A DNA stretch of 64,000 bases from Zoroaster sp. YZ-2022 (Eukaryota; Echinodermata; Asteroidea; Forcipulatida; Zoroasteridae): positions 3,891,423-3,955,422 of the forward strand of contig CM055827.1 of NCBI GenBank assembly GCA_029582265.1, in the 5' to 3' direction. A program made the translations under genes and the position numbers. The notes beneath the pieces are model-generated. The model was given only the letters and a program-made list of their open reading frames with translations, had not been told where the DNA came from and searched no databases. Shown here one piece after another: positions 3,571-57,690 of this stretch (position 1 is its first letter; each line of letters begins with the position of its first letter).

Positions 3571-3893
3571 TTAACCCTCCTACTATTGCACTTTAGTGGG
3601 AAGTTGCTATAGAGATCAAAACCAGTCAACTGACTGTTTTGACGGTTGACCCATAATGTGCACACAGGGGCATTTTTGACTGGTGTTTACTGTCATTTTG
3701 ACCACCCTGAACAATACCAGACAATGCTTTTACCAGTCAAAAATGGTCGACACATTTTGACCTGTAAATGTACTTACTGCATGTAAGGTTTGACAGTGTT
3801 CGACTTTTTAAGTGCACTAGATATGTACCTTGGCAAGTATATCAATATTTTGACTGATTTTGACCCTTGTGGTACATGTAGTAGGAGGGTTAA
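3571..3893 (+). mobile_element. TTAA-flanked MITE, CCCTCCTACTA family with GACTGG words
   Basis: Runs from TTAACCCTCCTACTATTGCA to GTAGTAGGAGGGTTAA (interrupted here by a CATGTA insertion at 3873-3880). The interior repeats TTTTGAC and GTCAAAA in both orientations. Other copies: 47037-47356 (minus), 52608-52981 (plus), 39366-39507 (partial, minus). TTAA ends followed by CCC/GGG resemble piggyBac termini. Confidence 0.8.
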
Positions 3894-4041
3894 CTGCACT
3901 AGATGTACCTTGGCAAGTACATCAATATTTTGACTGATTTTGACCCTTGTGGTAGTAGGAGGGTTAATTGCACTAGATGTACCTTGGCAAGTACGTCAAT
4001 ATTTTGACTGATTTTGACCCTTGTGGTAGTAGGAGGGTTAA
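3894..4041 (+). repeat. Two extra tandem copies of the MITE right end
   Basis: The last 74 bp of the preceding element (from GCACTAGATGTACC to GGAGGGTTAA) is repeated twice more in direct tandem, each ending in TTAA. The two extra units lack the CATGTA found in the first, giving an internal comparison. Confidence 0.85.
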
Positions 4042-4734
4042 AGATGGATGCCATTTATTCATTGCTTAAATGAGTTGCTTCTACTGTACATCATTTCTTT
4101 CCTAAGGAAAGATGATATTATGTTAACACCTTGCAGGAAACCTCCCCTTCAGGCTGATCAACTTTGTACATGTACAGTAACATGAATGAACATCACAGAT
4201 TTTTTTTACTCCTTGAGTTCATGTTCACAGATGGAAAGTGCAGAATTTACATTTTAACAAGATTTAATATCGGTAATGATATAAAGTGCCGTGATGAAAT
4301 GCATAATTTAATCTAAGAAGCAGAGTAATATGAATCTTAAGATGCACACATGTGTATAATGTATGTTTCATGTACACAGTGTGATCTTGTACATGTGTCT
4401 GCATCGAGTTTTGAATTTTGAGATATTAAGTACTCATAAATTTGAAATGTTTGTTTCGAGTGAACGTGCATGTACTGTAAATGAATCCATTTTTTTTTTT
4501 TAAGTAAGGTTTTTATATATTGATTTTGAAAATGCAAATTAAGTTTTGTGGCTATGGAAAGCGGGTTGGTGTATTACTACATGAACTGTGTACTTTCAAA
4601 GTCTGTTCACCTCAGTGGACCTTGGTTCGAAACCGCTCTAACCAAGCTGACACTAAGATTTCCCCCCCCCCCCCCCCCCGTTCCTACCTGATATAAAGTA
4701 CATCAAGCTGGCAAAACTGCTCCTATGGGTACAT
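4042..4734. other. No gene recognised
   Basis: AT-rich sequence with homopolymers, including a C run at 4663-4679. I see no convincing open frame, splice-bounded exon or complete transposon. Confidence 0.5.
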
Positions 4735-4985
4735 GATAAGTAATTTCATCATCATCACGATCAACAGGGCATGGAATCAGATAGCTAGTTTTATATGAAC
4801 TCAGTGACTGAAAATAATACCCCACATGATGAGGTCATATTACATGTACAGTACCATTGCTGCTGCATTTATAAATGAGCCAGTAGTTTTCAGTGACTGT
4901 GTTCATCTTAAACTAGGACACCGATTCCATGCCCTGTAGAAAGTCTGCTCAGGTTATAGTGTTTCCTCCCACATCTTAAACTGAG
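4735..4985. mobile_element. Degenerate copy of the CAGGGCATGGAATC MITE
   Basis: Contains CACGATCAACAGGGCATGG near the left and GATTCCATGCCCTGT near the right, matching better copies at 26857-27086, 29934-30164 and 30834-31054. Here the TA in CATATTACC of other copies has become TACATGTACAGTACC (4841-4853). Confidence 0.65.
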
Positions 4986-5231
4986 CATTACATGTACATG
5001 TACACGTTATGTATGTACATGTACTTCATCATCTTCTCTTCACATATTTCCATAGAATTATTCTTACAGCGTACAGAATAAATCCCTAGCTTCCCTTGGC
5101 ATTCTTGCTAGGAACCATCCCAAATCTTCCAAAATTCATCATCATCATGCAGTAAAAAGGTACCCTACCATGTAGTTGTTGGACTTTGTTGGAATTGGTA
5201 CAGTGGCAAATGCAAAGCATCCATGGCTTGG

Positions 5232-5440
5232 CTATACACAGTCCTGAATCCAACAAAAGCAGCCAGTGGAGTCTGATGGATTTGGTACACATGGCTACAT
5301 GCTCTATTCGCTGGGCTATACTGTGGAGTACTTACTGAATCCAACAAAAGCAGCCAGTGGAGTTGGATGGATTTGGTACACATGGCTACATGCTCTATTC
5401 GCTGGGCTATACTGTGGAGTACTGAATCCACCAAAATCAA
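5232..5440 (+). repeat. Tandem duplication of about 104 bp
   Basis: The block from GAATCCAACAAAAGCAGCC through GCTGGGCTATACTGTGGAGTAC occurs twice in tandem with very few differences; a third partial start follows at about 5420. No function apparent. Confidence 0.8.
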
Positions 5441-5475
5441 GCAAAACCAGGTGGTGGATTTTGATGGACTTGGGG

Positions 5476-6309
5476 TAGGGTTTTAATGGCATGATTTGGG
5501 CTTTTCCCCATGCTGAACATGTAATGGTGTGTCTAGGTGTGAAAGATGCACTTTTTGTGCAATTAATGAGCTACACATGTACGTACACTGTGCCCAGACT
5601 TTGTACATGTAGGAGCCATGCTTGGTTGCACCGCAAATAGGTCTGCATGTAAATCTGTGTGCTTGAGGGGTAATTATGGAATCGATGGACCCTGATAGCT
5701 GGCTTGGAAATGTTTTTTATATGAGTGGTATCTTGTACGCCTGGCATTTCGGATCAATCAAAGTGAACGGCTGATTAACTCCTCAAACTGAAACAGCCTC
5801 ATGATTTTACATACGTCCATCACGCCTGGCGTTGGTTGATTACATCTGTGAATTTGATATTCCTTCTGTTCTTTGCTCTTTTCCTGTCAAATTTGATCAA
5901 CGGTGTTCATGTAAATATTGCTAAAATACTTAGGAAAAGGGTAGACAAGTACATACTTGTGTGTCATTTCTAGTGTCTTTTTTTTCCCCCCCATTAAAGA
6001 TGTACTGTATGTATTGCCCATGCTTTACAATTTCTGATTTTTTTTTTTCATTGGAACATTGATAATTTCCATTTAGAAAAGGGAAAAAATACACTAAGCA
6101 AACTCATTCCTTTTGGTATGAATCCATTGTTTAGCATCCTTCACTTTCACTTCAATCACTTGCACTTTCCCCGGACATGTTTTTTCTTTGGAATTACACA
6201 GATTTGACCAATGTTTTTATATCAAAATCCCATTTTAGAGAGTTGGGTTTGTTAAGCATGTGCACTGTTCGTAAAATATAATAAAAGGCCATTATCTTCA
6301 ACAAGCTTC
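5476..6309. other. No gene recognised
   Basis: Only short chance frames and homopolymer runs. No repeat family I could match elsewhere in the window. Confidence 0.45.
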
Positions 6310-7095
6310 ATAGACCTAACCGTATACATACACGTACATGTATGTACACATATATGCGTACATATATGTACACATGTATGCGTACATATATGTACACATG
6401 TATGCGTACATGATATGTATATATACACATGTATGCGTACATGTATGTACACATGTATGCGTACATGATATGTGTATACACATGTATGTGTACTAGTACA
6501 CATGTATGCGTACATGATATGCGTACATATACACATGTATGCATGCATGTATGTACACATGTATGCGTACATGATACAATGTATGTATACATGTATGCAT
6601 ACATGTACATGATATGTGTAACACATGTATGCGTACATGATATGTATATACACATGTATGCGTACATGTATGTACGCGTACATATACACATGTATGCGTA
6701 CATGTATGTACACATGTACATGTATGCGTACACATGTATGCGTACACATGTATGCGTACACATGTATGCGTACATGATACATGTATGTATATGTACATGA
6801 TATGTATATACACATGTATGCGTACATACGTACACATGTATGCGTACATGATATGTGTATACACATGTATGTGTACATATACACATGTATGCGTACATGT
6901 ACAAAATGTATGTACACATGTATGCGTACATGATATGTACTATATACACATGTATGCGTACATACATATGTACACAAGTATGCGTACATGATATACACAT
7001 GTATGTGTACATATATACACATGTATGCGTGCATATATACACATGTATGTGTACATGTATGTACACATGTATGCGTACATGTACATGATATGTAC
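6310..7095. repeat. Minisatellite built on CATGTATGCGTACATG
   Basis: About 0.8 kb of imperfect repeats of ACACATGTATGCGTACATG, often followed by ATATGTAT. The core is a near-palindrome, so the array reads alike on both strands and gives long spurious frames (His/Cys/Met/Tyr-rich) in several frames. It abuts a GC-rich block at 7096. Confidence 0.9.
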
Positions 7096-7290
7096 AGTAC
7101 CGGCTGCAAGTAATTCCAAATCCCCGCGAGTACGAAACGGGGCCCCGCGAGTAAACTGCGTGGCGGGTACGGGGCCCCACGCATCCCCGCGGGGATTTTG
7201 CGTGGACACAGCGAGGGCCTCGCACGCGGCGTACGTGTCGTGGACAAGCTTTGCGGGGCCCCACAAAGGCCCCGCAACAGAACCAAGCAC
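7096..7290. repeat. GC-rich CCCCGCGGGG-word repeat, copy 1
   Basis: Starts CAGTACCGGCTGCAAGTAAT and is dense in GGGGCCCC and CCCCGCGGGG. A related block at 12310-12522 is inverted, ending in the complement of the same first 30 bases or so. It is far more GC-rich than its surroundings. Class unknown; the CAGTACCGG end suggests a DNA transposon terminus. Confidence 0.6.
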
Positions 7291-7299
7291 AACTTTATG

Positions 7300-9331
7300 C
7301 TTGGGTGAACATGAATACCTTCTATGATCACCTGGCGATCCCGAGTAAAAGAACGGCAGACTTCGTTCATGCTTTTGTTGAGGTTTTCTTGAGCGTGCCC
7401 GCAAAACGTTTGATCAACTTCCTGTATTATTTTTGTGCATTCAACGGCCATTACCTTGGTAATATCACGAACTTTTAACAAATCCAACCTTTTTCTTTTT
7501 TCGTGATTATCGGTGCTCTTTGAGACTTCAAACGTCCGGTTCGCCTGAAAATGCAACTTCCCGCCATGACCCACCGCGCCTGATTTTTCGGCCGATCACG
7601 CGGCTGGAATTAACTTTAGGGAATTAACTCCGTGCACGATTGGCAGCTGCTTGCTTGCCCGTGATTCCGCATTTTCCCCAAATTGAGTCTGTGTTTGTTT
7701 TAGATCACGGACCGCCATTACTTAAGTTCGCTAGCACAACTTACATTGACGATGCTAAACCGTTAATGAACTGTGTTGTCCTCTATTTCTGTATTAAACT
7801 GTTTTCTATTTAAGTTCTGTCCACAGATATCTTCAGTGTCGTTATCACATTATTTTCATCAACAATTCTGGCGGTTTTCAGCAAGAATCCTTTTGATGGT
7901 TTATGAACTAGGGCGAAAGTTAATGTACTATCAGTAGAACTGTCAATCATTCTCCTTGGAATGAACTTATTTATTCTCCAGGCATATTGAAGGTTTAGGG
8001 CATATTGAAGGTTTAAGGCCAATGGAAATTATAGTGGCTAACAATCAAAATATAATTTAACAAAAATATTCTACAACATATTTTACTGAATAAAAATAAA
8101 TTGTTGGTTTAATAAACTAAATATTAAAACTTAAGCACATGATGTGAATGTACTAAATAAATGACTGAGGTTGTTAATGGATCAGCCATGACGCCGGTGA
8201 TGCAGAGGATTCGTCATGCAGGTAAATTTTAATACACGTTAACAAAAATGTTAAATGCATCAGGCCAAAAACAAAATCTCCCGCTTGGTCATCGGTTGGC
8301 TTCAAAATCGGTGCGGGACGGTGACGCAAGGAAATACGTGTATACTCGGGGACCAAATTTCTCATATACAAAGTATGGTGACCAGAAACCGGATACTTTT
8401 TTGGCCAAGGTTGTAAGTAAAATATCAAATTAAAACCCAAAATTCTTTGGGCGATATTTTAACTTACAATCATTTGTTCAGAATATACAAGTGATGCTAT
8501 CCAGCATTGGCATTCCGGGGACAATAGTTTTAAAAGATCGTATTTATTTTTTTAAACGGGAACATTTTTAAACACGAAATACGCATGGGGCCTGGGTAGG
8601 ATGTGGATGTGTAGGACGACAATGTCTCCTCAGATTTATCGTCACCTATAAAAGAGTGCAGAAATGATCATAGGCGTATGGGAATGTGTTTATCTGGGGG
8701 CGAGATCACTTTTGCCCAAAAAATAGACCAATTGCCCGAATTTTGAAATGGGTTAAATTGGGTGCGTATAAAGATAAATAGAACAGATTGCATGACCAGC
8801 GTAATTAACAAAAAAGTATCAGACTTTTGAACTTTGTTTTTGAACTGCTGAAAAGGCCTAAAAAGAGGTTTTCTTGTTTATTTAAAATAAAATTAATCAA
8901 TCATGTCAATTCACCCTTCTGCCCGAAAAATATGACCGTTTTTCGAAACTGGGGGGCAATTGCCCCTGCCCCCTTGCCCAATACGCCTATGGAAATGATT
9001 ACATAATTCTTTTCTGCTGACAATGATTCCCTATCACACATTTAAATATGATGGGTGTTTCTGTTTTAACCAACACAGTCTTTATTGCAAATGCCCACTT
9101 ATAGAGTTCATTGACGTTAAGCTCTTTGTGCGGCGATTTCCAGAACCTCAAAGGGCTGCTTCAGCGAGCTACGCTTCTGGAACAACAATAGAGCTGTCAA
9201 TCTTTCCTTCCGATTGGCAATTTATTTTAAGTTTAAGAAACTCTGCTGGCAAGGAATTTATTGTAGGGGAATATATATATTGGTACAAACTCATTCTGTT
9301 CTGCCAGCTCTCTCAGTATAGTCGTGCTAAA
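7300..9331. other. No host gene; partial dispersed repeat at 8255-8412
   Basis: The segment 8255-8412 matches the dispersed repeat seen at 17.9, 23.7, 54.0 and 57.4 kb (GGCTTCAAAATCGGT, AAATACGTGTATACTCGGGG, ATACAAAGTATGGTG). The remainder shows no supported gene. The open frame from 9023 simply runs into the transposase below. Confidence 0.5.
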
Positions 9332-10366
9332 ATGGGCCGTCGTCTCCCAATTTACGCAAAACATCGTATCGCTGTCTTAAATCAGAAGGGAAAAACTGCT
9401 TCAGAAATTCGTCGAATGCTTTTACTAGTTTTAGAGGACGACATAACAACGTCAACCAGAACTATTCGCCGGTTTCTTGAGCGCTATGCTGAAACTGGAC
9501 GCTTTGTTGACAGACATACATGTAGATCGGGTCACCCATCAGGTTTTTTGCCTGAACATCTTAGATTTATTGACACCCTCCTTGAAAATGATGATGAGTT
9601 AACGGCTCCTGATCTTCAACGTTGCCTGGCTGAAGCTGCTGGTCTTCATGTCTCACTTACGGCTGTGAAGCGAATTCGTCGAAAGTTACAGTGGATCTGT
9701 ACTGGTGCAAAGTATTGTCAACTCATCAAGATCGCAAACCGTCAGAAGCGTCTTGATTTTTGTAGACTAGCCGTGCAAAATCATGACACTTTCGACAATG
9801 TGATTTTTTCTGATGAGTGCAGTATTCAGCTGGAAAGTCACAGTCGAATAACATTCCGAAAGAAAGGTTGTCCCTGAAAGCTGAAATAAAGAGTAAAGCA
9901 CCCAACTAAAGTTCATGTTTGGGCTGGTATATCAAAGCGCGGGGCGACGCCAGTCCTTGTGTTTGAAAAAATCATGAACGGCCAATTCTATTGCAACGAC
10001 ATCCTCCGTGACACTCTCAAGCCATTCATCGACGAGCACTTTCCAGACGGGCACAGGTTCCAGCAGGACAATGACCCGAAGCACACCAGCAACGTCGCCA
10101 AAACTTATATGGAAGAGGCCGAGATTAACTGGTGGAAAACTCCAGCAGAAAGTCCCGATCTGAACCCCATCGAAAACTTCTGGCACCAACTCAAACACCA
10201 TCTCCGGCGGCGGGTCAAACCAAAGACGAAAGATGAACTGGTTGACGGCATATGTTCTTTCTGGCGAGAGGTTCCAACCCCAGAACTGTGCACGAAGTAT
10301 ATCAACCACATACAGAGGGTGATTCCTGCTGTTATTGAAAGGAATGGATGTGCGTCTGGCTACTGA
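9332..10366 (+). pseudogene. Tc1-like (DD34E) transposase, two in-frame stops
   Basis: One continuous frame of 345 codons starts at the ATG of MGRRLPIYAKHR and ends in CASGY plus TGA, the usual length of a Tc1 transposase (about 340 residues). It is broken only by TGA at 9875-9877 and TAA at 9887-9889. The N-terminal third looks like the paired helix-turn-helix region (HRIAVLNQKGKTASEIRRML; TAVKRIRRKLQW). The catalytic triad is visible: D in FSDECSIQLE, D in FQQDNDPKHTS, and E in SPDLNPIENFW exactly 34 residues after the second D. The enzyme family cuts and pastes DNA at TA sites. The frame is otherwise intact, so inactivation looks recent. I could not identify the element's terminal inverted repeats. 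A histone-type 3' end follows 18 bp after the stop. Confidence 0.93.
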
Positions 10367-10384
10367 TAAGTCATTAAACCAAAC

Positions 10385-10419
10385 GGCTCTTTTCAGAGCC
10401 ACCAAAAATTCAAAAGAGA
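10385..10419 (+). terminator. Histone-type 3' stem-loop with downstream purine element
   Basis: GGCTCTTTTCAGAGCC at 10385-10400 forms the 6-bp stem and 4-base loop of replication-dependent histone mRNAs, with the usual flanks CCAAAC before and ACCA after. Ten bases later CAAAAGAGA (10411-10419) matches 7 of 9 positions of the sea-urchin-type downstream element CAAGAAAGA. It lies 18 bp past the transposase stop, where a histone mRNA would carry it. No histone coding sequence is visible nearby. Confidence 0.75.
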
Positions 10420-10439
10420 TAATGATCTTTGTTGTCATG

Positions 10440-12309: not shown

Positions 12310-12522
12310 GATTGACAACAAAGCCCCCCCGTAACAGCCCACGGCTAACGTGCAGATTGTGCGGGGCATTTGCGGGCCCGCAAGTCTTCTTCCCCGGCAC
12401 GGTACTTTTCTCGTGGCTCCCCGCACACTCGCGGGTATATTGCAGGGATCCCCGGCACGTACTCGGAAGCCCCTGCGGGTTACCCGCAGGGATTTGGAAT
12501 TACTTCCAGCCGGTACTGTATG
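12310..12522. repeat. GC-rich CCCCGCGGGG-word repeat, copy 2 (inverted)
   Basis: Carries GGGCCCGC, CCCCGGCAC, CCCGCAGGG words and ends GGAATTACTTCCAGCCGGTA, the inverse of the start of the block at 7096. Like that copy it abuts ACATG-rich sequence (TGTACACATG). Confidence 0.6.
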
Positions 12523-12570
12523 TACACATGTGTATGTACATGATATGTACATTATGTATTTGTAACGAAG

Positions 12571-12671
12571 GTTGAGATACGAGTTGTGCGATACGGTTCT
12601 TTTCAGAACCTGTACCTCAGCTTCACGTTAGTTGAGATAAACACATGGTGTTACCGCAAACCGAAACGATA
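12571..12671 (+). repeat. Hairpin-family repeat, solo copy
   Basis: Contains hairpin GGTTCTTTTCAGAACC (12595-12610) followed by CACATGGTGTTACCGCAAAC. It is nearly identical over about 100 bp to 29290-29390. The hairpin differs from the canonical histone stem by one compensated pair (C-G to T-A at the third pair). Confidence 0.75.
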
Positions 12672-12815
12672 TGCGTGCATATGTATACATGTACACATGT
12701 ATGCGTACATGATATGTATTATACATGCGTGCATACGTGTACACATGTGTGCGTACATGATGCGTGCATGTGTACACGTGTGCGTACATGATATGCGTGC
12801 ATATGTAACGTGTAC
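12672..12815. repeat. Short GCGTGCATATGTATACATG satellite
   Basis: Imperfect repeats of CATATGTATACATG, GCGTACATGATATG and GTGTACACGTG, related to the 6.3-7.1 kb minisatellite. Confidence 0.7.
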
Positions 12816-12819
12816 ACTT

Positions 12820-12963
12820 AATAATTGTTGCCTGGCGTGATGGGGTCCATGGCGTTTTGTACACCCGAGGGGGCTGATGGCACCCGAGGCGAAGCCGAGG
12901 GTGCCATCAGCCCCCGAGGGTGTACAAAACCCATGGACCCCCATCACGCCAGGCAACAATTAT
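12820..12963. repeat. Foldback element with about 65-bp arms
   Basis: Nearly perfect palindrome running from AATAATTGTTGCCTGGCGTG to the complementary CACGCCAGGCAACAATTATT. The loop is only about 15 bp around GAGGCGAAGCCGAG. CACCCGAGG and its complement recur inside the arms. An RNA of this region would form a very stable hairpin. Confidence 0.85.
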
Positions 12964-17890: not shown

Positions 17891-17895
17891 ACTTT

Positions 17896-18215
17896 AGTCC
17901 CCCCCCCCCCCCCCAAAAAAAGTCTCAGGTTTCTGGTCATACATGTAGGTCGACTTCAAAATCGGTGCAGTGACGCGCTTTTTATTTGGCCAAGCAGTGA
18001 AAGACGTGATACATGTACATACTCGGGTATTGGAATCAGACCAGATTTCCTATACACAAAGTATGGTTGCTAATAGAGGCCTTACAAATTGGGCAAACGT
18101 TCATACCCCTCTGACTATGTGAAAAAGTCGTTTAAAGCACAGCACGGCAGAATTCCAATTGATCCAGCAATTTTGGCTGCAATTGGACAACTTTTCATAC
18201 ATGTAGCAAGGCCTC
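17896..18215 (+). repeat. Dispersed repeat, GTCTCCGGTTTCTGG family, copy 1
   Basis: Conserved blocks in order: AAAAAAGTCTCAGGTTTCTGG, GACTTCAAAATCGGTGCA, CAAAGTATGGTTGC, GGCAAACGTTCATACCCC, TGTGAAAAAGTCGTTTAAAG, TTTGGCTGCAATTGGACA. Full copies also at 23690-24035 and 57355-57690 (plus) and 53830-54215 (minus). No terminal repeats seen; class unknown. Confidence 0.75.
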
Positions 18216-20426: not shown

Positions 20427-20692
20427 TTAAAACCCCCTAGGTATTCTGGCTAGGAACCTTCCTGAATCCTCCAAAATCCATCAGTGCACTTTTGGAAAAA
20501 TGCCCTTATCTTCAAAATGCACCATGCACTTTCGTTGATCTTTCATATTCAGCACTTATGGCCTGTACTTCTTGCCATATAGTAATTTTGTCCCATTTGA
20601 AGAGGTGAAAGTACCAGTTTCCAACAGTGCTGAATATTCCCCAAAAAGTGCCCCTTGGAGGATTTTGCAGGATTTGGGGTGGTTAGGGTTAA
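20427..20692 (+). mobile_element. TTAA-flanked MITE, CCTAGGTATTCTGGC family, clean copy
   Basis: Begins TTAAAACCCCCTAGGTATTC and ends GGGTGGTTAGGGTTAA. The interior repeats AATCCTCCAAAATCC and GGAGGATTTTGCAGGATT. Related copies: 43042-43305 (minus), 46140-46507, and parts of 26.4-28.7 kb. The GGTTAGGG end resembles a telomere repeat only by chance. Confidence 0.8.
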
Positions 20693-21163: not shown

Positions 21164-21433
21164 ATGTGACCCGCCCTGGCAAAACCCGAAACATGGACCC
21201 AACTTTTCGCAGTGACCTCCCAAATTTATCATGAATATTAACAATTTTCCCAACAGCGTTTCAGGATTTTTCCTTTTCCATCAAAATCTAGAGAAAATGC
21301 TCTAGGCCCTACATGTATATGGTGACATGAAAATCTCAAACTGGTCCCTGGGGTCAGTTTTTGACCTTCTCATGGCCGTTACACATTATGGTAAATGCCG
21401 AGAAGTTTTCAGGTTTTGGCAGAGCGGGTCACA
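21164..21433. mobile_element. MITE with TGTGACCCGC ends, copy 1
   Basis: Left end ATGTGACCCGCCCTGGCAAA and right end TTTTGGCAGAGCGGGTCACA are inverted. Opposite-orientation copy at 36518-36770. At 21310-21317 TACATGTA replaces the single TA of the other copy (CTCTATATGGTG). Confidence 0.75.
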
Positions 21434-23689: not shown

Positions 23690-24035
23690 AGGCCAAAAAA
23701 AAAAAGTCTCCGGTTTCTGGTCATTGGTTGGCTTCAAAATCGGTACATTGATGCATTTTTTATTTTTTCGGCCATCATTTTTTTTTTTGCCAACAGGGAA
23801 ATACGTGATACATTGTATACGCGGGGACCAAATTTCCCATATACAAAGTATGGTGGCTAAGAGAGGCCTAACAAATCTGGCAAACATAGTCGTACCCCTA
23901 TGTGAAAAAGTCGTTTAAAGCACAGCACAGCAGAATTCCAATCGATCCAGCAATTTTGGCTGCAATTGGACATCGTTTCATAGCACACAAAAAATGCCGA
24001 AGCGCGGGTCTGAGGCGATGCATGCGGAGACCAGA
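23690..24035 (+). repeat. Dispersed repeat, GTCTCCGGTTTCTGG family, copy 2
   Basis: The most complete copy of the family: AAAAAGTCTCCGGTTTCTGG, AAATACGTGATACATTGTAT, CATATACAAAGTATGGTGGC, GAATTCCAATCGATCCAGC. At 23809-23817 it has TACATTGTA where the 8.3 kb copy has a simple TA. Confidence 0.8.
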
Positions 24036-26003: not shown

Positions 26004-26700
26004 TCAAGAGGTTTATGGGTCAGTGTTGGCTCAACTGACAGTGTGGACACATCCTGAGCTGATTAACCCTTTGGCATTAATCAATCAAAGAGCTTGGGTG
26101 GCCTTGAATGGTGTGAGGAACATTCATGAAATTCCTTTATTTTGTGAATATTACATGTACCTTACATTAAATTTTAAAAACAGAATTTATTTTTGATTGA
26201 TTCAATGGGGAAAAGATACACAGCCAATCACTAGACATTGATCTTTCATGTTCAGCACTTATGGCCTGTACATGTACATGTACTTCTTGCCAGGTAGTAA
26301 ATTTGTCCCATTTGAAGAGGTGAAAGTACCAGTTTCCAACAGTGCTGAATTTTCCCCAACAAAGTGCCCCTTGGAGGATGGATTTGGGGTGGTTATGGTT
26401 AACCCTAACCCTCTAGGTATTCTGGCTAGGAACCTTCCTTAACCCTAACCACCCTGAATCCATCAAAATCCATCAAAATCCATCCCCCTGTTTTGGAGGA
26501 TTTCGGCGGATTCAGGATATCTCCACATTGAGCATATGGCGGACTTTGATGGATTCAGGATTTCAATAGTTTTTAACTGCTTGGTCATGTTGGTTGATGT
26601 ATTTTGATGGATTATAGTTACATGTACATGTACTGTACATGTACAGCCAACACTTGTATGTGTTAGATTTTGATGGATTCTATGCAGCAACATACTATAC
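26004..26700. repeat. Segmental duplication block A, first copy
   Basis: About 697 bp, apparently identical to 27541-28238. It contains a fragment of the CCTAGGTATTCTGGC MITE and GGATTTTGATGG words. Part of the A-B-A'-C-B' arrangement at 26.0-30.6 kb. Confidence 0.9.
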
Positions 26701-27543: not shown

Positions 27544-28238
27544 AAGAGGTTTATGGGTCAGTGTTGGCTCAACTGACAGTGTGGACACATCCTGAGCTGA
27601 TTAACCCTTTGGCATTAATCAATCAAAGAGCTTGGGTGGCCTTGAATGGTGTGAGGAACATTCATGAAATTCCTTTATTTTGTGAATATTACATGTACCT
27701 TACATTAAATTTTAAAAACAGAATTTATTTTTGATTGATTCAATGGGGAAAAGATACACAGCCAATCACTAGACATTGATCTTTCATGTTCAGCACTTAT
27801 GGCCTGTACATGTACATGTACTTCTTGCCAGGTAGTAAATTTGTCCCATTTGAAGAGGTGAAAGTACCAGTTTCCAACAGTGCTGAATTTTCCCCAACAA
27901 AGTGCCCCTTGGAGGATGGATTTGGGGTGGTTATGGTTAACCCTAACCCTCTAGGTATTCTGGCTAGGAACCTTCCTTAACCCTAACCACCCTGAATCCA
28001 TCAAAATCCATCAAAATCCATCCCCCTGTTTTGGAGGATTTCGGCGGATTCAGGATATCTCCACATTGAGCATATGGCGGACTTTGATGGATTCAGGATT
28101 TCAATAGTTTTTAACTGCTTGGTCATGTTGGTTGATGTATTTTGATGGATTATAGTTACATGTACATGTACTGTACATGTACAGCCAACACTTGTATGTG
28201 TTAGATTTTGATGGATTCTATGCAGCAACATACTATAC
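27541..28238. repeat. Segmental duplication block A, second copy
   Basis: Starts at TCAAGAGGTTTATGGG directly after block B and matches 26004-26700 without differences that I can see. Confidence 0.9.
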
Positions 28239-30833: not shown

Positions 30834-31054
30834 TTAAAGGGACAGTATCGTCACGATCAACAGGGCATGGAATTGGAATGCTAGTTTTAGATTAACTCGG
30901 TGACTACCGTAATACCCCACATGATAAGGTCATATTACCGTTGCTGCTGCATAAATTAGCCAGTAATTTTAAGTCACTGTGTTAATCTTAAGCTACATGT
31001 AGGACATCGATTCCATGCCCTGTCGAATTAAGTATTGATGATACTGCCCCCTTA
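30834..31054. mobile_element. TTAA MITE, AGGGACAGTATCGTCACGA family, further copy
   Basis: TTAAAGGGACAGTATCGTCA to TGATGATACTGCCCCC. Has TACATGTA at 30994-31001 where other copies read ACTAGGA. Its right TTAA is replaced by TTACCC of the next repeat. Confidence 0.75.
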
Positions 31055-32079: not shown

Positions 32080-32480
32080 TAATAATAATAGTAATTTAGA
32101 CTTATATAGCGCACGTATCCACCAAACTGGTGCTCAAGGCGCATTACATTATTAGCCCTGCTCATCAGGCGCATTACATTATTAGCCCTGCTCATCAGGC
32201 GCATACTGTAAATCATTCCTGAAACCATCTCAGCTCCCTCGGGAGTATACAGCTCAATTGCTGCCATTTCGGCGCATATCGGGCTAATCAAACACAACAA
32301 CCAACTCTGCCCTCACAGGTGCCCATTTACTCCTCCTGGGTGGAGAGAAGCAATTATGGTAAAGTGTCTTGCGGAAGGACACAAGCACCATGGTCGCGGC
32401 CAGTATTCGAACCCACATTTTGACGACTCGGCCATCAGAACACAAATCCGATGCACTAAACCGCTCGGCCATGGCACTCC
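32080..32480 (-). mobile_element. tRNA-derived SINE with L2-like tail
   Basis: Minus-strand order: tRNA-like head (GCCATGGCCGAGCGGTTTAG as A box region; GGGTTCGAATACTGG as B box region), body with CACTTTACCATAATTGC, then GCGCCTTGAGCACC and GTGCGCTATATAAG and a (TTA)n tail. Internal duplication of AGCAGGGCTAATAATGTAATG. Confidence 0.88.
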
Positions 32481-39365: not shown

Positions 39366-39507
39366 CAATTTTAATACTGTCAAAATGACAGTAAAAACCA
39401 GTCAAAAATGCACATTTGGATCAACAGTCACAACAGGCAGTTGACTGATTTTGACCACTACAGCAACTTCCCACTAAAAGTGCAGCTACATGTATAGTAG
39501 GAGGGTC
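39366..39507 (-). mobile_element. Partial GACTGG-word MITE
   Basis: AATGACAGTAAAAACCAGTC to ATAGTAGGAGGGTC, inverted relative to 3571-3893. TACATGTA at 39487-39494 replaces the TA of GCTATAGTAGG in other copies. Confidence 0.75.
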
Positions 39508-46026: not shown

Positions 46027-46139
46027 ACTCTTGGTTATCTTGAAAAACATATGTGCTACACTGAGATTTACGTAAAATTTTCCTTGGTGTGCAAAGTTTG
46101 TGATGGCATCAAACATCCCTTGAAATTGTCTCAGTAAAA

Positions 46140-46507
46140 TTAACCCTAACCCCCTACATGTAAGTATTCTGGCTAGGAACCTTCCTGAACCCTAACCCCC
46201 TATAGGTATTCTGGCTAGGAGCCTTCCTGAACCCTAACCACCTACATGTAGGTATTCTGGCTAGGAACCTTCCCGAATCCTCCAAAATCCATCAGTGCAC
46301 TTTTGGAAACATGCCCTTATCTTCAAAATGCACCAGGCATTTTCGTTGATCTTTCATATTCAGCACTTATATGGCCTGTACTTCTTGCCAGGTAGTAATT
46401 TTGCCCCATCTGAAGAGGTGAAAGTACCAGTTTCCAACAGTGCTAAAAAAAATTCAAAAAAGTGCCCCTTGGAGGATTTTGCAGGATTTGGGGGTGGTTA
46501 GGGTTAA
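46140..46507 (+). mobile_element. TTAA MITE, CCTAGGTATTCTGGC family, with triplicated left end
   Basis: TTAACCCTAACCCCC at the left; the first 60 bp or so (ACCCTAACC to GAACCTTCC) is present three times, two of them with TACATGTA (46155-46162, 46243-46250) where the consensus has CTAGG. Ends GGTTAGGGTTAA. Confidence 0.8.
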
Positions 46508-46987: not shown

Positions 46988-47036
46988 GTAATGTATGCAT
47001 GCCCACCAGATGTACTCGCAACTAGTTTATTTCTTA

Positions 47037-47356
47037 GAACCCTCCTACTACAACAATTGCCAAAATCAGTCAAAATGTTGATATACTTGCCAAGGTATAT
47101 CTAGTGCACTTAAAAAGTCAAACACTGTCAAACCTTACGTGTAGTACATGTAAGTGTACATAGACAGGGCAACATGAGTCGACCGTTTTTGACTGGTAAA
47201 GCATTGTCTGGTATTGTTCAGGGTGGTCAAAATGACAGTAAAAACCAGTCAAAAATGCCCCTGTGTGCACATTTGGGTCAACAGTCAAAACAGGCAGTTG
47301 ACTGGTTTTGACCTCTATAGCTACTTGCCACTAAAGTGCAGCTATAGTAGGAAGGT
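47037..47356 (-). mobile_element. CCCTCCTACTA MITE with GACTGG words, inverted copy
   Basis: AACCCTCCTACTACAACAAT to CTATAGTAGGAAGGTTAG. Full-length relative to 3571-3893. TACATGTA at 47145-47152 interrupts GTAGTAAGT of the other copies. Its decayed end (GGAAGGTTAG) directly abuts a palindromic hairpin-family element; the same junction occurs at 52673. Confidence 0.8.
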
Positions 47357-50500: not shown

Positions 50501-50936
50501 AGAGGGGCAAAGTTTGGATGGTTTTCTTGACCTTAATGGGGGTCAAACAGGGTTGCTATGGTTATTACCCCTGTCCGCATTTACTCTGTGTCGACATGTT
50601 CATGATGTGTATGCATGTACACAGTGCAGTATGTGTACTTCCGTACCGTAACCATACATATCATACAGTTCCCTACCAGACAAGCAACAACTACATACGT
50701 GTGTTTTTGTACAACGTCTTTCTCTGTTACTGTTTAACTCCTTGGTTAATTAACCAAGAAGAAAAAAGGAAGACACTGAAAATGAAATACGTAAAATAAC
50801 ACTACAATTTTCGGGGTGTCAACTATTTTGAAAAGGGAATTTACAACATTGGTAATATTGGCAAAACTGCTTTTATATGCAAATATACATGTACAGTACA
50901 TGTTAACTCATGTTGAATCAGTAAAGTGAAGAGGAT
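47591..50936. other. Intronic; hAT-type ends at 47692 and 50286-50303
   Basis: CAGTGGCGGATCCAGGATGG at 47692 and CTGGATCCGCCACTG at about 50289-50303 are inverted hAT-like termini, but flanks do not match as a duplication, so they are probably separate remnants. G/C homopolymers follow. CCCATCCCCAGTGGGTGGGT (48952) and CACTGGGGATGGGACTGGGT (48987) form a local inverted pair. No exon found. Confidence 0.5.
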
Positions 50937-51320
50937 AAGTAAAGACTATTTGCGGTGACACCGTGTGAGATTCTCAATTGAGTAGTAATTGATTCCGAAA
51001 AGAACTGGAGGTTACAACTCGACGTTTCGATCAGTATGCTCTGATCGTCTTCAGGAGAATGCCGGACTCTGGGTAAAGACCGTTTGCGGTGACACCATGT
51101 GAAAATTCTCAATTGACTAGTAATGAATAGAACTGGTGGTTACAACTCAACGTCTCGATCAGTAAGCTCTGATCGTCTTCAGGAGAACGAAGACGATCAG
51201 AAGACAATCGGAGCATTCTGATCGAAACGTCAAGTTGTAAACACCAGTTCTTTTCAGAACTAATTACTACTCAATTGAGAATTTCACATGGTGTCACCGC
51301 AAACAGTCTTTACTTATCTT
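50937..51320. repeat. Hairpin-family cluster: one inverted solo unit plus one palindrome
   Basis: 50937-51070 is a solo unit on the minus strand (TTTGCGGTGACACC, then CGACGTTTCGATCAG and CTGATCGTCTTCAGGAG). 51074-51315 is a palindrome with two differing central foldbacks and a right hairpin at 51246-51261. Three units with identical word order lie within 385 bp. Confidence 0.85.
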
Positions 51321-51580
51321 CTTCACCATGCAAAGCTACAAATATTACTAATCAAGAAAATAGTGAAAAGACATTCAGATTTATTGTATTCAATCTAACA
51401 TCTAGTACAGGAAAAAGTTGTTTCTTAAATTCAAACCCGAAACTAATTCTTAGACAAAATTATTTCTAGGGGAAGATTGATACCATCATCAGCTTAACAC
51501 AATGTACAGTATAAGCTCAATTAAATTTGACTATTTGATCAGTTTGGAATTACCAATTTGATACCTTACCTTTATAGTCC

Positions 51581-52585
51581 TTAACTCTTTCTACCCGGAG
51601 TTATTTTACATGTGTGGACGGAATTAATGTAATTAGTGTAATTTGATACTGTAATTTGATACTCTAAACATCAAGGTCAAGTGTGGAAATTATTAATAAT
51701 TTTTTTCATCTTTTGCCAATTGAAGAGAGTAAGGTATCAAAATAAAGGTTATGACTTACTGAGTGTGAATATTGAGATGGGGTCATGTTGGGGATACCCA
51801 TAATGCATTGCAGCCATCCAAATATAAACTTATGTTTATCGTTCCGTAGAATAAATGTCAATAAATCTACAAGGTATTGGAAATATGCATTGTATAATAA
51901 ACAAAGGTGGTTTGTTTATGTTAGAATATGTCAGGGCATAATAAAATTACCCATAATGGTTTGAAACCCACTGTTTATGTAACAAAAATCATAATTTACA
52001 ACATTGATACAACATACCGTATCGCTATATCGCTATTGTACTTGGTACATATGACCTCAGATTAACAGCTTTTACGGTCGTTTTTTCCCTAAAAATCAAA
52101 ACTTCCATCACTGTCAGGGTGTTCAAAGTCAACATCGTCAGCATAATCACCTTCATCAGCACTTCCCACTTCATAATTCCATGAAAATTTTGTGTGTTTC
52201 GCATCTTGTTGTGAGTTCCATGGAGGCCGTCCATTTTTTGATTTAACGTGTGTGGTAAACCGCATAGGGTCGTGTGTAATTAACATAAACAAAAACTTGA
52301 CACAATCTCTGAGCTCTCGGATCGGAATGTTTCGTGAGTTCTCGTAGTCATAAACATCATCAATAATCAATATTTATTAGCTAATTTGCATTGAAGGTAC
52401 ATGACCTCGAATTCTTATTGGTTAGTTGTGTATTCTGTTGTCAAAACAAGTCAAAACACAACGATGTTGTCAGGTGATGACGTCGGGCCTATGTCGTGTG
52501 TGTGTCGGGCTTCTAAAGTGGCGCACCGTTCGCGTACGACGCGCATATGGGCTTCTAAAAGGGCGCGCCGTCCAGAAAGAGTTAA
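51581..52585. mobile_element. 1.0 kb TTAA element, CTCTTTCTACCCGG / CCGTCCAGAAAGAG ends
   Basis: TTAACTCTTTCTACCCGGAG at the left; CGCGCCGTCCAGAAAGAGTTAA at the right, TTAA on both sides. Terminal bases resemble the CTCTTTCGCTACCG family at 62873-63586. It is the only TTAA element here with a notable frame (52089-52370, minus). Confidence 0.7.
52089..52370 (-). CDS. Unrecognised acidic frame inside the TTAA element
   Basis: 93 codons, MIIDDVYDYENSRNIPIREL through a central basic part (THVKSKNGRPPWNSQQD) to a very acidic C-terminus (SADEGDYADDVDFEHPDSDG). The composition is unlike the simple-sequence frames around it. I recognise no family. It may be a captured host-gene fragment or the remnant of an element-encoded protein. 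Confidence 0.3.
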   Translation of the reverse strand: MIIDDVYDYENSRNIPIRELRDCVKFLFMLITHDPMRFTTHVKSKNGRPPWNSQQDAKHTKFSWNYEVGSADEGDYADDVDFEHPDSDGSFDF

Positions 52586-52607
52586 AATAATAATAACAAT
52601 AAAAAGT

Positions 52608-52981
52608 TTAACCCTCCTACTATAGCTGCACTTTAGAGAATTTTTCACATGGTGTCACCGCAAAGTCTTTACTAACCTTCCTACTATAGCTGCACTTTAG
52701 TGTTAAGTAGCTACAGAGGTCAAAACCAGTCAACTGCCTCTTTTGACTGTTGACCCAAATGTGCACACGAGGGCATTTTTGGCTCGTTTTTACTGTCATT
52801 TTGACCACCCTGAACAATACCAGACAATGCTTTTACCAGTGAAAAACGGTTGACTCAGTTTGACCCGTAAATGTACTTACTACACGCAAGGTTTGAAAGT
52901 GTTCGACTAGATATACCTTGGCAAGTACATGTATATCAACATTTTGACTGTTTTTGACCCTTGTAGTAGTAGGAGGGTTAA
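52608..52981 (+). mobile_element. CCCTCCTACTA MITE with embedded hairpin-family end
   Basis: TTAACCCTCCTACTATAGC starts a 28-bp stub, then GAGAATTTTTCACATGGTGT...GTCTTTAC (hairpin-family end, 52636-52672), then a second MITE start (TAACCTTCCTACTATAGC) that runs full length to GTAGTAGGAGGGTTAA. TACATGTA at 52926-52933. Confidence 0.8.
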
Positions 52982-53336
52982 TATAAACTTGGAGTTTAGG
53001 GTGTAAACTCTTAAAGGTTGTTTTATTGTCTGAACTACATGTACATTTATCTTGTGTTATCACGCACTTGTCAGCAGATGCTTATTGTTCTGATCAGCTT
53101 ATTATTTCCGAAATTATCCAAATAGACAGATCGCTGAGACAACTTTATACCCACTTAACCTGATCACTCAGCTCCGCATACATCTACCTGCATCTGCATG
53201 GATTGCACAAAAACCATTATATTTTTTTGTTTTCAAAGATTCCAAACATTAATTTAATTAACCAGCATGATGTTGTTATGATTTGCCAAGTAATTTTGTT
53301 GTTCTCTTTTGCAAAATGCTCTTGTCCCTGTCACAG

Positions 53337-53498
53337 CCACCCAAGAAGTGAATGGAAACGCAACGCCCAATTTGCCTGATATTCAGCCCCCACCCTCCCT
53401 TACCAAGCCCTACCCAGTGCCACAAGGGGTGATAGATAGCCAGAAAGACAAGCCCCTGGATGTGGTCAAAACCACAGAGGAAACCCAACAACCAAAAG
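53337..53498 (+). CDS. RING-finger protein gene, second proline-rich exon
   Basis: Acceptor TCCCTGTCACAG and donor AAAAG|GTAGAT bound 162 bp, phase 1 at both ends. It encodes TQEVNGNATPNLPDIQPPPS, LTKPYPVPQGVIDSQKDKPL and DVVKTTEETQQPK: polar, proline-rich, no hydrophobic core, so likely disordered. Together with the exons at 40807, 44009 and 46844 it forms one frame. The GC-rich, repeat-free sequence contrasts with the flanks. Confidence 0.8.
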
Positions 53499-53829
53499 GT
53501 AGATCTTTCTTTTCATACGTGTATTTCGCAAACGAAATGGAGGTGTTTTTACAAATGGAAGTGACTTCACAATAGTCAGCATTGAAATGCTATTAATGAA
53601 TGCCTCGGACAGTCAACTGAGCTGAGAAAATTTGATTGGTCAAGAGATATGAGTATGTGAGAGTGCATCAACGGCTGATATATCAAAATCAGATCAATGC
53701 ATATGTTCGTGTCTGCCAGCTGTTACATTATTCCGGCGCACAACGGCTGATGCGGAATTGAGCCAAACGGAATGTAGATGTTTATTTTGCGTCACGCTGA
53801 ATCATGCTTAGTTTTGTGTATACATGTAG

Positions 53830-54215
53830 CTGCCTATAAAAAAAATAATTAAAAAAAGTCTCCGGTTTCTTGTCTCTGCGTGCGTCGCCTCAACCTGTGT
53901 GTCGGCATTTTTAGTTTTCTTTTCATTTGCTATGAAAGGATGTCTAATTACAACCAAAATTGCTGTATCAATTTGAATTCTGCCGCACTGTGTTTTAAAC
54001 GACTTTTTCACATAAGAGTATGAGCCGATTTGTGAGGCCTCTCTTAGCCACCGTACTTTGTGTATGGGAAATTGGTCTGATTCCAATACATAACTGCATA
54101 CACATGTATCACTTATTTCACTGGTTGGCTCAACAACAACAAAAACCAAAAATCACCGATTTTGAAGCCGACCCATGACCAGAAACCGCAGACTTTTTTT
54201 TGGCCTTATGTTCAT
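53830..54215 (-). repeat. Dispersed repeat, GTCTCCGGTTTCTGG family, inverted copy
   Basis: AATTGAATTCTGCCGCACTG, GACTTTTTCACATAAGAG, CTTAGCCACCGTACTTTG and GATTTTGAAGCCGACC match, inverted, the copy at 23690. An AAAAAGTCTCCGGTTTCTTG segment occurs at each side (53854 and, inverted, about 54180). Confidence 0.75.
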
Positions 54216-55599
54216 ACCTTGCCATAAGCAAACTGTCCGGAACAATTAATATTTGGTAATAATAATAACTAACAATTTATAACATTTCGGTATCTGTCAG
54301 AAATGATGCCCAGGGCAAAATACAAACAAACAAAACCAGTACAACCAAAAATAAACTGTACTTAATTGTAACAACTCTTCTGAAACAGGTAGTCTCAAGA
54401 AAATATTGAGTCAATTACCAACACACAAACATTTACCCTATTTTACAGTTGATGAAAAAGAAAACCTTGACACAGCATTACTGAGCAAAAACATCTATAA
54501 CCAAGTAATTGCCCTTGTAGTATACACTGCTGACTGTTGACTAATATATTGCGTGAAGTGCTTCGAATGAAGAGGTGATCGCTGCCCATTCATAATCACC
54601 TCTAACCTGTAGATAACTCACATTTCATATCTTAGTCATCTTCCCTTCTCATCTTGATTACCACACAAGTGCCCCCAAAATATGCTCTCCCCCTCAACAA
54701 AGCCATCATGGATTTAATTCCCCCCCCCTTCTTCTTCTTCATTCTAGCTTTTTCACCCTAATGTTATTAAATTTTACCAACTTGGATATATTCTCTCGAG
54801 AACAAAAGCGGGGGTGATTGCCTCCAGGTGTTTTATACCAAACGCAAGGAATGACTCATGCAATGAGAACCGACTTTGTCAGGAAACTAATACCGTTTCC
54901 TTTTATCAGCGGTTTTTTTTTCGCATTCTTTTTTTCCTTCTTCATTTTTGTCTTCCTTTAAATTTGCATTGATTGTGTGTGTGTGTGTGTGCATGCTCAG
55001 TGTAATGTCAGTTATTACAGACACATTTTTTATGCGCTCTTAGCGCTCCTGGCGTGAATAGGAATTTTTTCCTTTCATTTTTTGGTATTTTCTGTTACGA
55101 GGTAGGAGATCTGGCAGAGGAAACCTTTTATTTGATCGTTTAACAAAATGCTTTGTTGAAAACCTCCGTGCATTGTCAGTTAACAGACACATTTGACAAG
55201 CTCGTACATTATATTAAGCTCTTCTACTATGAACGGTTTTATTTTTTTATTTTTGGAAGAAATATAATTAAGGTGGAAGGTGAGAAAGTGCTATTTGTTT
55301 ATACACAAAATAGTTGGTTGAAAGCCTTTTATCTTCGAGCCGAATGTTTACAATGAGTGTGATATGGATGCCAAAAATACCCAGTGACATTACAATGTTG
55401 AATCCATATCACCATTTTCACAAATGTTTAACTTTAGATTTTAAATTAACCAAGATTTTACAGCTGGATAAAGCTGGTTACTGAAGGAAAAGGTTACTGT
55501 CGGAAGAAACAATGAACAGGAAATTCCCTTATAGTTTTTGAACTGTTCAGTACATGACATGTACTATACATGTACATATATGACAGATAACATGTAATC
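54216..55599. other. No exon recognised
   Basis: (GT)n at 54975-54991 and poly-pyrimidine stretches. No supported exon or element. Confidence 0.4.
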
Positions 55600-55800
55600 A
55601 TCAAGGGTTTGATTTGTCCAGATTTTTCCGGATTTTCAGATTTTTACGAATCGCAGTGTTGTGATCCTCCAGATTTTAAAGATTTAAGCAATAGAGGAAA
55701 GCAGAGCAAACGTTCAGAACTATAGATTTCACCCAATCGCTGTTCACAACAGCGGCCCCAATACCCCTAGGAAAATTTACATGGATATTTTCAAAACTGC
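55600..55800. repeat. CCAGATTTTTCCGGATTTTC repeat, copy 1
   Basis: GGGTTTGATTTGTCCAGATT to CAATTACACTCCTGA. A second copy at 58225-58440 runs CAGGGGTTTGATTTGTC to CAATCACACCCCTG; these ends are inverted and hAT-like (CAGGGGT). Confidence 0.7.
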
Positions 55801-56089
55801 CCAATTACACTCCTGAATTATGAAGATGTCTTTGGTTTATCTGTTAGGATAACATTGTTTTTTTTTTTTAAACCAAACGCATTCATCAGGGCTGGATCCA
55901 AGGTGGCAGGGCGGGAGGGAGGACGGACATACTTGAAAATTAAGTCCCTTTCATGCGGAGACCAGTTTATTTGTTGGTTTAATCCTTCTATTCATTGGCC
56001 ATTCAATGTTATTCAAAAGGTTTTGAATGATAAATGTACTATGCCAGTGTGCCACACTATATAGTGTGGATAATGCATCTTAAACAGGC

Positions 56090-56430
56090 CAGTGATTTCT
56101 CAGGATTTTTGCTGATTTCAGGATTTTATACAAATCTCCCTTTGCCTTAAAAATGTGTTGATTTCTCAGGATTTTTCCTGATTTCGGGATTTTATACGAA
56201 TCTCCCTTTGCCTTAAAATTGTCTTGAAAGAAGAGAAGTAACTACCAAGGAAAAAAAGAAGTAGCCTGTATCGTGTCCAAACCTCTAGTTTCTTGTTTGT
56301 GGGGATGTGGAGAGTTTGTAAATCCTCCAAAATTAAATATCCTGGAGGTTCAGTGGTTTTGCCCTCTAGACCCAGGCCTGCTACCCATTTTTCAGGATTG
56401 TTTACGTGTGTCAAATCACGCCCCTGACCT
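56090..56430. repeat. TCAGGATTTTTCCTGATT repeat, copy 1
   Basis: TTCTCAGGATTTTTGCTGAT, CAAACCTCTAGTTTCTTG, GGGGATGTGGAGAGT, AGACCCAGGCCTGCTACCCA, TCAAATCACGCCCCTGA. Copy 2 at 62625-62872 continues at 63587-63620 after a TTAA element inserted in it. Confidence 0.75.
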
Positions 56431-56787
56431 AAACTGTACACGGTCCATTTTCTGCAAAGTTACTCCGCCAGTCACAAAAACTAGACGGTCTTTCTGGGTT
56501 CGACTTGTCAGTCAACTCGCTGTACAAATGTATGTCGAGTTTCATTTTAAAGAGTTATTTAGTTGTTCAATATTATATAATTAACTCTGAAGGACACTCA
56601 TATTGAATGAGCCACTTAGGGTAAAACCCTTAATTGTTTCAGATCTGGTATCAAAAGGTAATAAAAGCAGGATTTCCCCTGCATGTAAACTTGGAGTCAT
56701 TTAACCTACTGTACATGTATTATACAAGTAATTAGCACATGTAAGGTACAGAGTGATGCAATAGAGAGGTAGCCATGGTGTCCAGGG

Positions 56788-57301
56788 TTAAAGAGGGGCT
56801 CTAAGGTCAAATTTAGTTTTGTGATTTTCCAATAACTAGAGTCCTTATTAAAGTGTGAAAAAATTACAAAAAAAAATAGCCTCTAACCTCTAACAAGTGA
56901 TGTAAAATGTCATTTTATTTGATAACCTTCCTGTGAAATTTGTTAACATCCAAAGACAACAGTGACGTCACATTTCAAATAAATGGATCTCTACATTTTT
57001 GTACGGTGAATTTGCAGTTCATTCCTGAATCTCCACAATATTTGATCAAATCGGCGTTAAAATTGACTTTTTGACAAACAAAAAATTCCTGTATGAAATG
57101 TTACAGACTCATTTACTGTAAGAAAATAGTGACGTCATGTTTCAAATATCGCTCTGAAAGGGCATCAAATAAAATGATATGTTACACCACTTTAAAGTGA
57201 AGTTAGAGACTTGTAATTTTTTTCACACTTTAATAAGGACTCTATCTATTGGAAAATGAGTGCATCACAAAACTGAATTTGACCTTAGAGTGCCTCTTTA
57301 A
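56788..57301. mobile_element. TTAA MITE with about 100-bp inverted ends
   Basis: TTAAAGAGGGGCTCTAAGGT at the left and ACCTTAGAGTGCCTCTTTAA at the right, TTAA on each side. The pairing continues through TAGAGTCCTTATTAAAGTGT/ACACTTTAATAAGGACTCTA. The interior has AGTGACGTCA twice. Confidence 0.85.
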
Positions 57302-57354
57302 GATCAAAAAGTGTATTTTTTTTTTGGGGGGGGGGGTGGTATCACAGACTGCAT

Positions 57355-57690
57355 CCATCTTCGTCAGATCATGGTCAGATTCCCTACACACAAAAGATTA
57401 CCAAAATAAATTTTTTGTTTGGCCAACAGGGAAATACGTGATAAATGTATACGCAGGGACCATATTCTCCATATACATGTACAAAGTATGGTGGCTAAGA
57501 GAGGCCTCACAAATCGGGCAAACGTTCATACCCCTATGTGAAAAATTTGTTTAAAACACAGCACGGCAGAATTCGAATGGATCCAGCAATTTTGGCTGCA
57601 ATTGGACATCGTTTCATAGCAAACAAGAAAGAGAATTAAAAATGCTGATTTGCGGGTCTGAGGCGACACGCACAGAGACAAGAAACTGGA
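57355..57690 (+). repeat. Dispersed repeat, GTCTCCGGTTTCTGG family, copy 4
   Basis: GGGAAATACGTGATAAATG, GTATGGTGGCTAAGAGAGG, GGCAAACGTTCATACCCC, GAATGGATCCAGCAATTTTG. TACATGTA at 57474-57481 interrupts CATATACAAAG of the copy at 23841. Confidence 0.78.

Follow-up and report, generated by a model that had tools for sequence, protein, structure and literature searches.

The 64,000-nucleotide stretch considered here, C12:3891423-3955422 of the asteroid Zoroaster sp. YZ-2022 (the window in what follows; the assembly comprises 1.0 Gb in 616 contigs), contains the word TACATGTA 144 times before any masking, and it raises the question of what process would fill a genome with one short word. A comparison sample of twenty 10-kb stretches (L005 to L024) from chromosomes C1 to C13 holds 42 copies in 200 kb, with 0 to 14 per stretch; the window is rich in the word and the excess is patchy. 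We propose that TACATGTA in this genome is mostly the footprint left by the excision of Tc1/mariner-type transposable elements, a reading to which we assign a probability of roughly 0.86, with single scars well supported. The same excision process is likely to have made most of the genome's excess of the word. A sequence-only reading had arrived at excision scars from paired repeat copies in the window, and this interpretation is supported by insertions at lone TAs, by an excess confined to TA in the window, by stereotyped inserts and by resident elements with CA ends.

Insertions at lone TA dinucleotides

The sequence-only reading had paired nine TACATGTA sites with sister copies carrying a bare TA. 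On re-alignment seven of the nine pairs differ by a clean 6-bp insertion, and these seven belong to four repeat groups of the window. They lie (scar coordinates are given without strand throughout) at 3873..3880, in a 74-bp repeat present as three tandem copies, the other two of which have the bare TA; at 30994..31001, in the repeat family A and at a site surveyed genome-wide; at 39487..39494 (bare sister at 47342); at 46155..46162 and 46243..46250 (both with the bare sister at 20437); at 52926..52933 (bare sister at 3835); and at 57474..57481 (bare sister at 23841). The remaining two pairs are not clean, the bases beside the insertion differing as well at 21310 and the gap at 47145 being 8 bp. 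Two compound changes hold: at 4841..4853, within a family A copy, an 11-bp insertion has turned TA into the double mosaic scar TA-CATG-TA-CAG-TA, and at 26269..26282, with a duplicate at 27807-27820, a TA that is bare in the sisters has become two CATGTA units by a 12-bp insertion (TACATGTACATGTA). The TA-CATTG-TA at 23809 could not be confirmed as an insertion since its sister reads GATAAATGTA and has no bare TA.

Further cases come from an all-against-all alignment of 276 kb, with large arrays excluded. Among its 6-bp insertion rows TA-CATG-TA is found at eight distinct places, six in the window and two in L016, and by eye no other 6-bp insert recurs across contexts; the insertion list also contains slippage and tandem-duplication events. 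An inverted repeat at L016:5458 has arms that align over 619 columns with 10 substitutions, and their one gap is CATGTA at a TA. In the window, TACATGTA at 17940..17947 corresponds to a bare TA in sister copies, and a copy of a short interspersed element (SINE) carries a TA-CTG-TA insertion (TACTGTA) at 32204..32210. A broken Tc1-like transposase gene on the + strand (9332..10366; DDE_3 above the cut-off, HTH_Tnp_Tc3_2 below it, in-frame stops at 9875 and 9887) has TACATGTA within its reading frame at 9517..9524, where its relatives L039 and L040 show a bare TA and are six bases shorter. The footprint recurs in this way in unrelated host sequence, namely the four repeat groups, the two L016 places and the transposase gene, and genome-wide in the SINE and in a repeat family C. 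The aligned empty copies carry one TA, which is duplicated around the remnant. These copies contradict pure replication slippage as the origin of single scars, as the sequence-only reading had argued, because a lone TA offers no CATG template to copy; longer chains may still slip.

Insert spectra were obtained genome-wide by fixing the flanks around a TA, allowing a gap of 3-14 bases and reading the inserted letters directly, so that they cover short inserts with intact flanks. At site 2 of family A, which is a palindromic repeat, we found 143 inserts and 5,827 bare copies, many of the latter within one satellite array. A satellite array at C1:1718357-1727983 has a family A piece every ~65 bp. 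Among the 100 matches listed for site 2, 53 inserts are 6 bp long and 40 of these are CATGTA; CATTGTA, CATGTA-CTGTA, CAATGTA-CATGTA and single-base variants are also seen. The SINE, at two adjacent TAs, gave 147 inserts against 27,232 bare copies. TA-CATG-TA accounts for 29 of the 40 six-bp inserts among the 100 matches listed, 21 at the first TA and 8 at the second, and the same 100 include CATGTACATG (3), CANTG (7), CAG (3), CTG (1), CA (2), TG (5), GGCC (4), GCC (4) and CCGG (2). Inserts at TA are not random in sequence, and the CAG, CTG and CAGTG variants that had been predicted are found among those of the SINE. At a non-TA position of the same SINE, counted without a bare-copy total, none of 16 inserts of 3-14 bp contains CATG.

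Family C yielded 240 inserts; 18 of the 100 listed are six bp long and comprise, by eye, six GGCCTA and three CATGTA. Five of the six listed GGCCTA inserts lie on one chromosome (C3:33.9-58.4 Mb), which might reflect shared descent or local hopping. Site 1 of family A has 41 inserts, all of them listed, two of which are CATGTA. Pooled over the four TA sites, hand-entered counts among the matches listed give 116 six-bp inserts, made up of 74 CATG, 10 GGCC, 4 CCGG and others. TA-CCGG-TA inserts in the spectra of the SINE and of family A site 1 hint at a third scar class.

Word counts were compared with second-order Markov expectations after masking large arrays, which in the window lie at 6333-7094 and 59284-60439. 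These are a CATGTATG-type array and a 63-bp tandem array, both full of CATGTA-like words. The masked window contains 118 TACATGTA for 4.5 expected, and the 200-kb sample 42 for 7.1 expected. In the window, XY-CATG-XY is enriched solely for XY = TA, the other fifteen dinucleotides giving 0 to 6, and CATG stands out among the sixteen palindromic tetramers between TAs; TATA, at 15 against 1.8 expected, is the sole other notable one and is microsatellite-like. TACATGTA outnumbers the other words of this TA-palindrome-TA form, in line with the requirement of the sequence-only reading that it be commoner than shuffled words of the same length. The form TA-CANTG-TA is also in excess (30 against 3.9 expected in the window, where the other 15 forms of the same shape reach at most 5, and 18 against 7.5 in the sample). 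In the 200-kb sample GGCC between TAs (TAGGCCTA) occurs 14 times for 1.1 expected, some of these being copies of each other (L012, L020), and CCGG 7 times for 1.6 expected.

A word excess of this kind could also be maintained by selection for the site of a CATG-binding protein, for example of the BEN-domain type, and the BEN-domain protein NACC1 is described as preferring CATG-containing sequences (PMC11472053). Point mutations under selection do not produce insertions of exactly 6 bp at a TA in one repeat copy and not another, and they do not give the CANTG or GGCC class; we reject this explanation on account of the exact insertions and regard its probability as negligible.

The two words are spread differently by region, a comparison of the window with L005-L024 showing the window to be nearly all CATG-type. 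The ratio of CATG to GGCC words is 118:1 in the window and 42:14 in the sample (Fisher p ~4e-7, the sites being partly non-independent). Such a regional difference would be explained by local hopping, a behaviour of Sleeping Beauty according to a review (PMC7827188). By simple arithmetic from the 200-kb sample the excess extrapolates, very roughly and with large regional variation, to 180,000 TACATGTA genome-wide.

Element ends and the proposed excision

Excision footprints of the Tc1 type are textbook knowledge, and TACATGTA is the footprint of Tc1. An element of the Tc1/mariner superfamily would insert at a TA and duplicate it. On departure, its transposase would cut one strand at a position two bases into the element. 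The terminal CA would thereby stay on each flank as a 3′ overhang, and the overhangs would be sealed by end joining as TA-CA-TG-TA. Elements ending in GG would by the same rule leave TAGGCCTA, and bases gained or lost at the join would give CANTG, CAG, CTG, CA or TG. Each scar would then offer two TAs on which later elements could land, and mosaic chains would arise. We infer the excision step and the 2-nt stagger of these transposases; the insert spectra are for the most part those expected when 2-nt overhangs are joined whole, and a minority of inserts fit fill-in, loss or 3-nt forms. Duplication of the TA upon insertion (PMC2170065) and non-complementary 2-nt 3′ overhangs in Tc1 excision (PMC4490562) are both described. 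For Sleeping Beauty and mariner 3-nt overhangs are reported, and it is the end joining of the overhangs that makes the footprint (PMC7827188).

Candidate donors were sought among elements encoding a DDE_3 transposase, for which a first look returned 1,709 candidates; 150 were scored and a pair of copies was fetched for each of eight families (F1 to F8). F1 and F6 have TA duplications and ends compatible with CA/TG remnants, so that resident families of the sort the sequence-only reading called for do exist. F1 (~35 copies, the pair 99.2% identical) has the terminal inverted repeat CAGTTTTTCTC and a DDE_3 transposase with 35 residues between D and E. F6 (~13 copies, the pair 99.4% identical) has the terminal inverted repeat CACTGCTC and a 387-amino-acid frame with 34 residues between D and E, Pfam domains PF01498 and PF13358, and Sleeping Beauty as its best match among solved structures. 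With a TA target duplication, inverted repeats and a DDE transposase, both appear from their sequences to be members of the Tc1/mariner superfamily, and the CATG remnant equals the terminal bases of these two CA-ended families.

The F6 transposase is at most 91% identical over its full length to named salmonid Tc1 transposases and 92% identical to unnamed ones, a likeness suggestive of horizontal transfer or of an aquatic source common to both. Of the sites seen for this young element (~13 copies; L033 and L034, about C1:35549287-35550872 and C19:26341825-26343410), most are ATATATA-like.

In four further families, F3, F4, F5 and F8, the inverted ends read GGTTTTC..GAAAACC and each end seen is flanked by TATA; their DDE_3 transposases have 32-33 residues between D and E (Pfam was run on one of them, L027). 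F7 has the ends AACCCCTC with TA. Under a simple rule, TA followed by the two terminal bases, their complement and TA, the footprint of F1 and F6 would be TACATGTA, that of F7 TAAATTTA and that of the GG families, provided that they start at GG, TAGGCCTA; TACATGTA and TAGGCCTA are enriched. The element ends of F2, the family of the window transposase, were not found, nor was there among the families examined a CC-ended one as a source for CCGG.

Slippage, amplification and scarce donors

A number of observations weigh against excision as the main source of the word. Scar density is very uneven between stretches. Specificity is weaker in the 200-kb sample, where GC-CATG-GC (8 against 1.4 expected) and TT-CATG-TT (25 against 9.0) are also raised, where the TA-CANTG-TA words include 13 CATTG and 0 CAATG, and where TA-GCNGC-TA reaches 16 for 0.7 expected, although a repeat may be the source of these last words. 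In the window the 3-nt forms stand out little as words (TACAGTA 11 against 8.6 expected, TACTGTA 23 against 9.2), and CAG, CTG and CANTG units lie one indel from CATG. In the insert spectra, TTA slippage makes up 17 of the inserts at family A site 1 by eye, ATA is the commonest insert over all lengths among the matches listed for family C, and at two of the four surveyed TA sites the most frequent inserts are of the slippage type. To the same side belong the excess of multi-unit chains, the poor resolution of the family A tree and the scarcity of donors, which are each taken up below with the explanation that they favour.

The chains bear on the possibility that CATGTA units were born as a microsatellite and spread by replication slippage, no transposon being involved. 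We count 140 CATG chains in ~261 kb. Among the 100 CATG-only chains of the masked window, 85 are single units and 15 have two or more, five times the 3.0 expected under a random choice of TA. This excess, the CATGTA-like arrays of the window and the slippage-type inserts just mentioned are what slippage would lead one to expect. On the other hand, the GGCC and CCGG inserts are not copies of CATGTA, the word effect in the window is confined to TA, and the non-TA position of the SINE has no CATG insert; with the lone TAs of the empty copies, this leads us to reject pure slippage, which is very unlikely as a general explanation. When all scar types are considered, the ~261 kb contain 40 chains of two or more units, of which 23 are mosaic, compared with a mean of 0.2 and a maximum of 2 in 20 Markov-simulated sets, a simulation that leaves the number of scars free. 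Two of the 23 (26619 and 28157) belong to a single segment that has been duplicated. Some of the mosaics may have come about by mutation in chains that had slipped, but the chain TA-CATG-TA-GGCC-TA-CAATG-TA at 57773..57793, in which three kinds of scar word are joined end to end and which includes a GGCC unit, and doubles such as CATGTA-CTGTA at the surveyed sites favour serial insertion and excision. Of the earlier proposal that (CATGTA)n grows in this serial manner, the part resting on mosaic chains is therefore supported, while slippage may add to chains and arrays. A preference for ATG-TA-CAT flanks around all scars was dropped: by eye the sites verified pairwise are without it, and we take it to consist of relics of neighbouring scars.

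If instead CATGTA had been gained once or a few times and then amplified with its repeat, or spread by gene conversion, many scars would stand for few events. A maximum-likelihood tree of 43 family A copies, 19 of them with CATGTA at site 2, bears on this. It includes the fetched copies that passed a filter on length and identity, 18 of 20 with CATGTA and 16 of 20 for comparison, together with a further nine from other loci and the window (one with CATGTA); the CATGTA copies were thus picked for carrying the insert. The label requires 13 changes on the tree, a number as low or lower in 161 of 500 label shuffles, so that inserted copies are no more clustered than shuffled ones, and of 200 bootstrap trees 0% show a single origin of CATGTA. 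Resolution is poor, with 25 of 40 inner branches open, and the well-supported branches force just 2 changes. One clade holds 7 of the 19 inserted copies. Amplification adds some copies, because these seven form one clade; the other 12 are scattered. The concentration by eye of listed GGCCTA inserts of family C on chromosome C3 would also suit amplification. On the other hand, the same insert stands in repeat groups unrelated to each other, at both of the adjacent TAs of the SINE, within a transposase gene and on one of the two arms of an inverted repeat, and a single site carries many different footprints. Given these unrelated contexts and varied footprints we reject amplification from a single origin, and consider few events with many copies a highly improbable account.

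The weakest side of the excision reading is the supply of donors. A scan of 276 kb for CA-ended inverted repeats gave three candidates, one of them credible, and six transposases used as tblastn queries found one Tc1-like gene in the same sequence, so that scars outnumber credible CA-ended elements by >100 to one in what was scanned. F1 and F6, the two CA-ended families, are young and number ~35 and ~13 copies. The single credible candidate for a CA-ended miniature inverted-repeat transposable element is a short element at L024:6498-6729, placed by the scan at 6500-6727, with perfect 20-bp inverted ends TACATAACAGCAAAAGAAAC. The scan requires well-kept ends and would miss decayed or old donors; the donors of most scars would be older ones beyond those found here, which we state as a reservation. 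The GG families are ambiguous, as they begin either at GG, with a TATA target, or at TAGG, and the latter would not predict GGCC. TAAATTTA, the footprint predicted from the AA-ended F7, shows no enrichment in the word counts of the window and sample. So large a surplus of scars might point to the insertion of terminal dinucleotides at TA without a resident element, for example by an abortive or domesticated transposase joining only element tips. Ordinary cut-and-paste movement makes a scar possible at each departure, and many scars can thus accumulate with time from few elements; we know of no transposase activity that inserts only element tips, and we deem this explanation exceedingly improbable.

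Meaning and comparison with known systems

Taken at its widest, excision would have made this genome a log of transposition, with of the order of 100,000 end-joined footprints that name the terminal bases of departed elements and are chained, with CATGTA simple sequence arising mostly from serial jumping and with a regional mix that records local hopping of families. We advance this wider claim tentatively and would put it at somewhat less than even odds. The footprint, familiar from assays at single sites, appears in this genome to be one of the chief influences on its short-word content. If that is right, excisions of long-gone elements could be counted, ordered and assigned to families, a very large number of natural events would show how the germline joins ends, and simple-sequence DNA of one class would gain an origin other than slippage. 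Anyone searching such genomes for motifs should then consider TACATGTA, and perhaps also TAGGCCTA, as scars before giving them a regulatory role. The kind of footprint was already known; within the literature searched, what is new is the scale, the classes that fit resident termini and the chaining, and in the portions of that literature available to us we found no case of a genome-wide build-up of such scars as the main source of a word excess.

The closest likeness is to Tc1 and Tc3 of Caenorhabditis elegans, whose excision footprint was reportedly described by Plasterk in 1991. The TA target is shared, as are, in the excision proposed here, the 2-nt 3′ overhangs of Tc1 (PMC4490562). Reversion in C. 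elegans was assayed by selecting for products that restore the frame, and most of these are described as polymerase theta deletions (PMC4490562), whereas here a clean 4-base remnant dominates and has accumulated throughout the genome. Sleeping Beauty, ZB and Passer are reported to leave footprints of 0-4 bases at TA from 3′ overhangs once the ends are joined (PMC7827188, PMC7913693, PMC9976928); CAG and CTG are a minority in our spectra. Those data are from single-element assays, while several classes of footprint coexist here as genomic sequence. Excision sites have likewise been read by sequence comparison in rice (PMC4423477) and for Stowaway in Triticeae (PMC1925063). In the rice study perfect excisions are given as 8 of 94, with a mean of 18 bp of flank deleted and with 13-bp fillers (PMC4423477), in contrast to the short stereotyped inserts found here in a survey of 3-14 bp with intact flanks. 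Finally, a (CATGTA)n hexanucleotide microsatellite resembles the tandem CATGTA arrays of the window. It differs from the scars in that, away from the masked arrays, 85 of 100 chains consist of one unit, the aligned ones standing at lone TAs, and in that some chains mix their units. In a microsatellite each unit is copied from an adjacent one, which does not hold for single scars at lone TAs; longer chains may differ.

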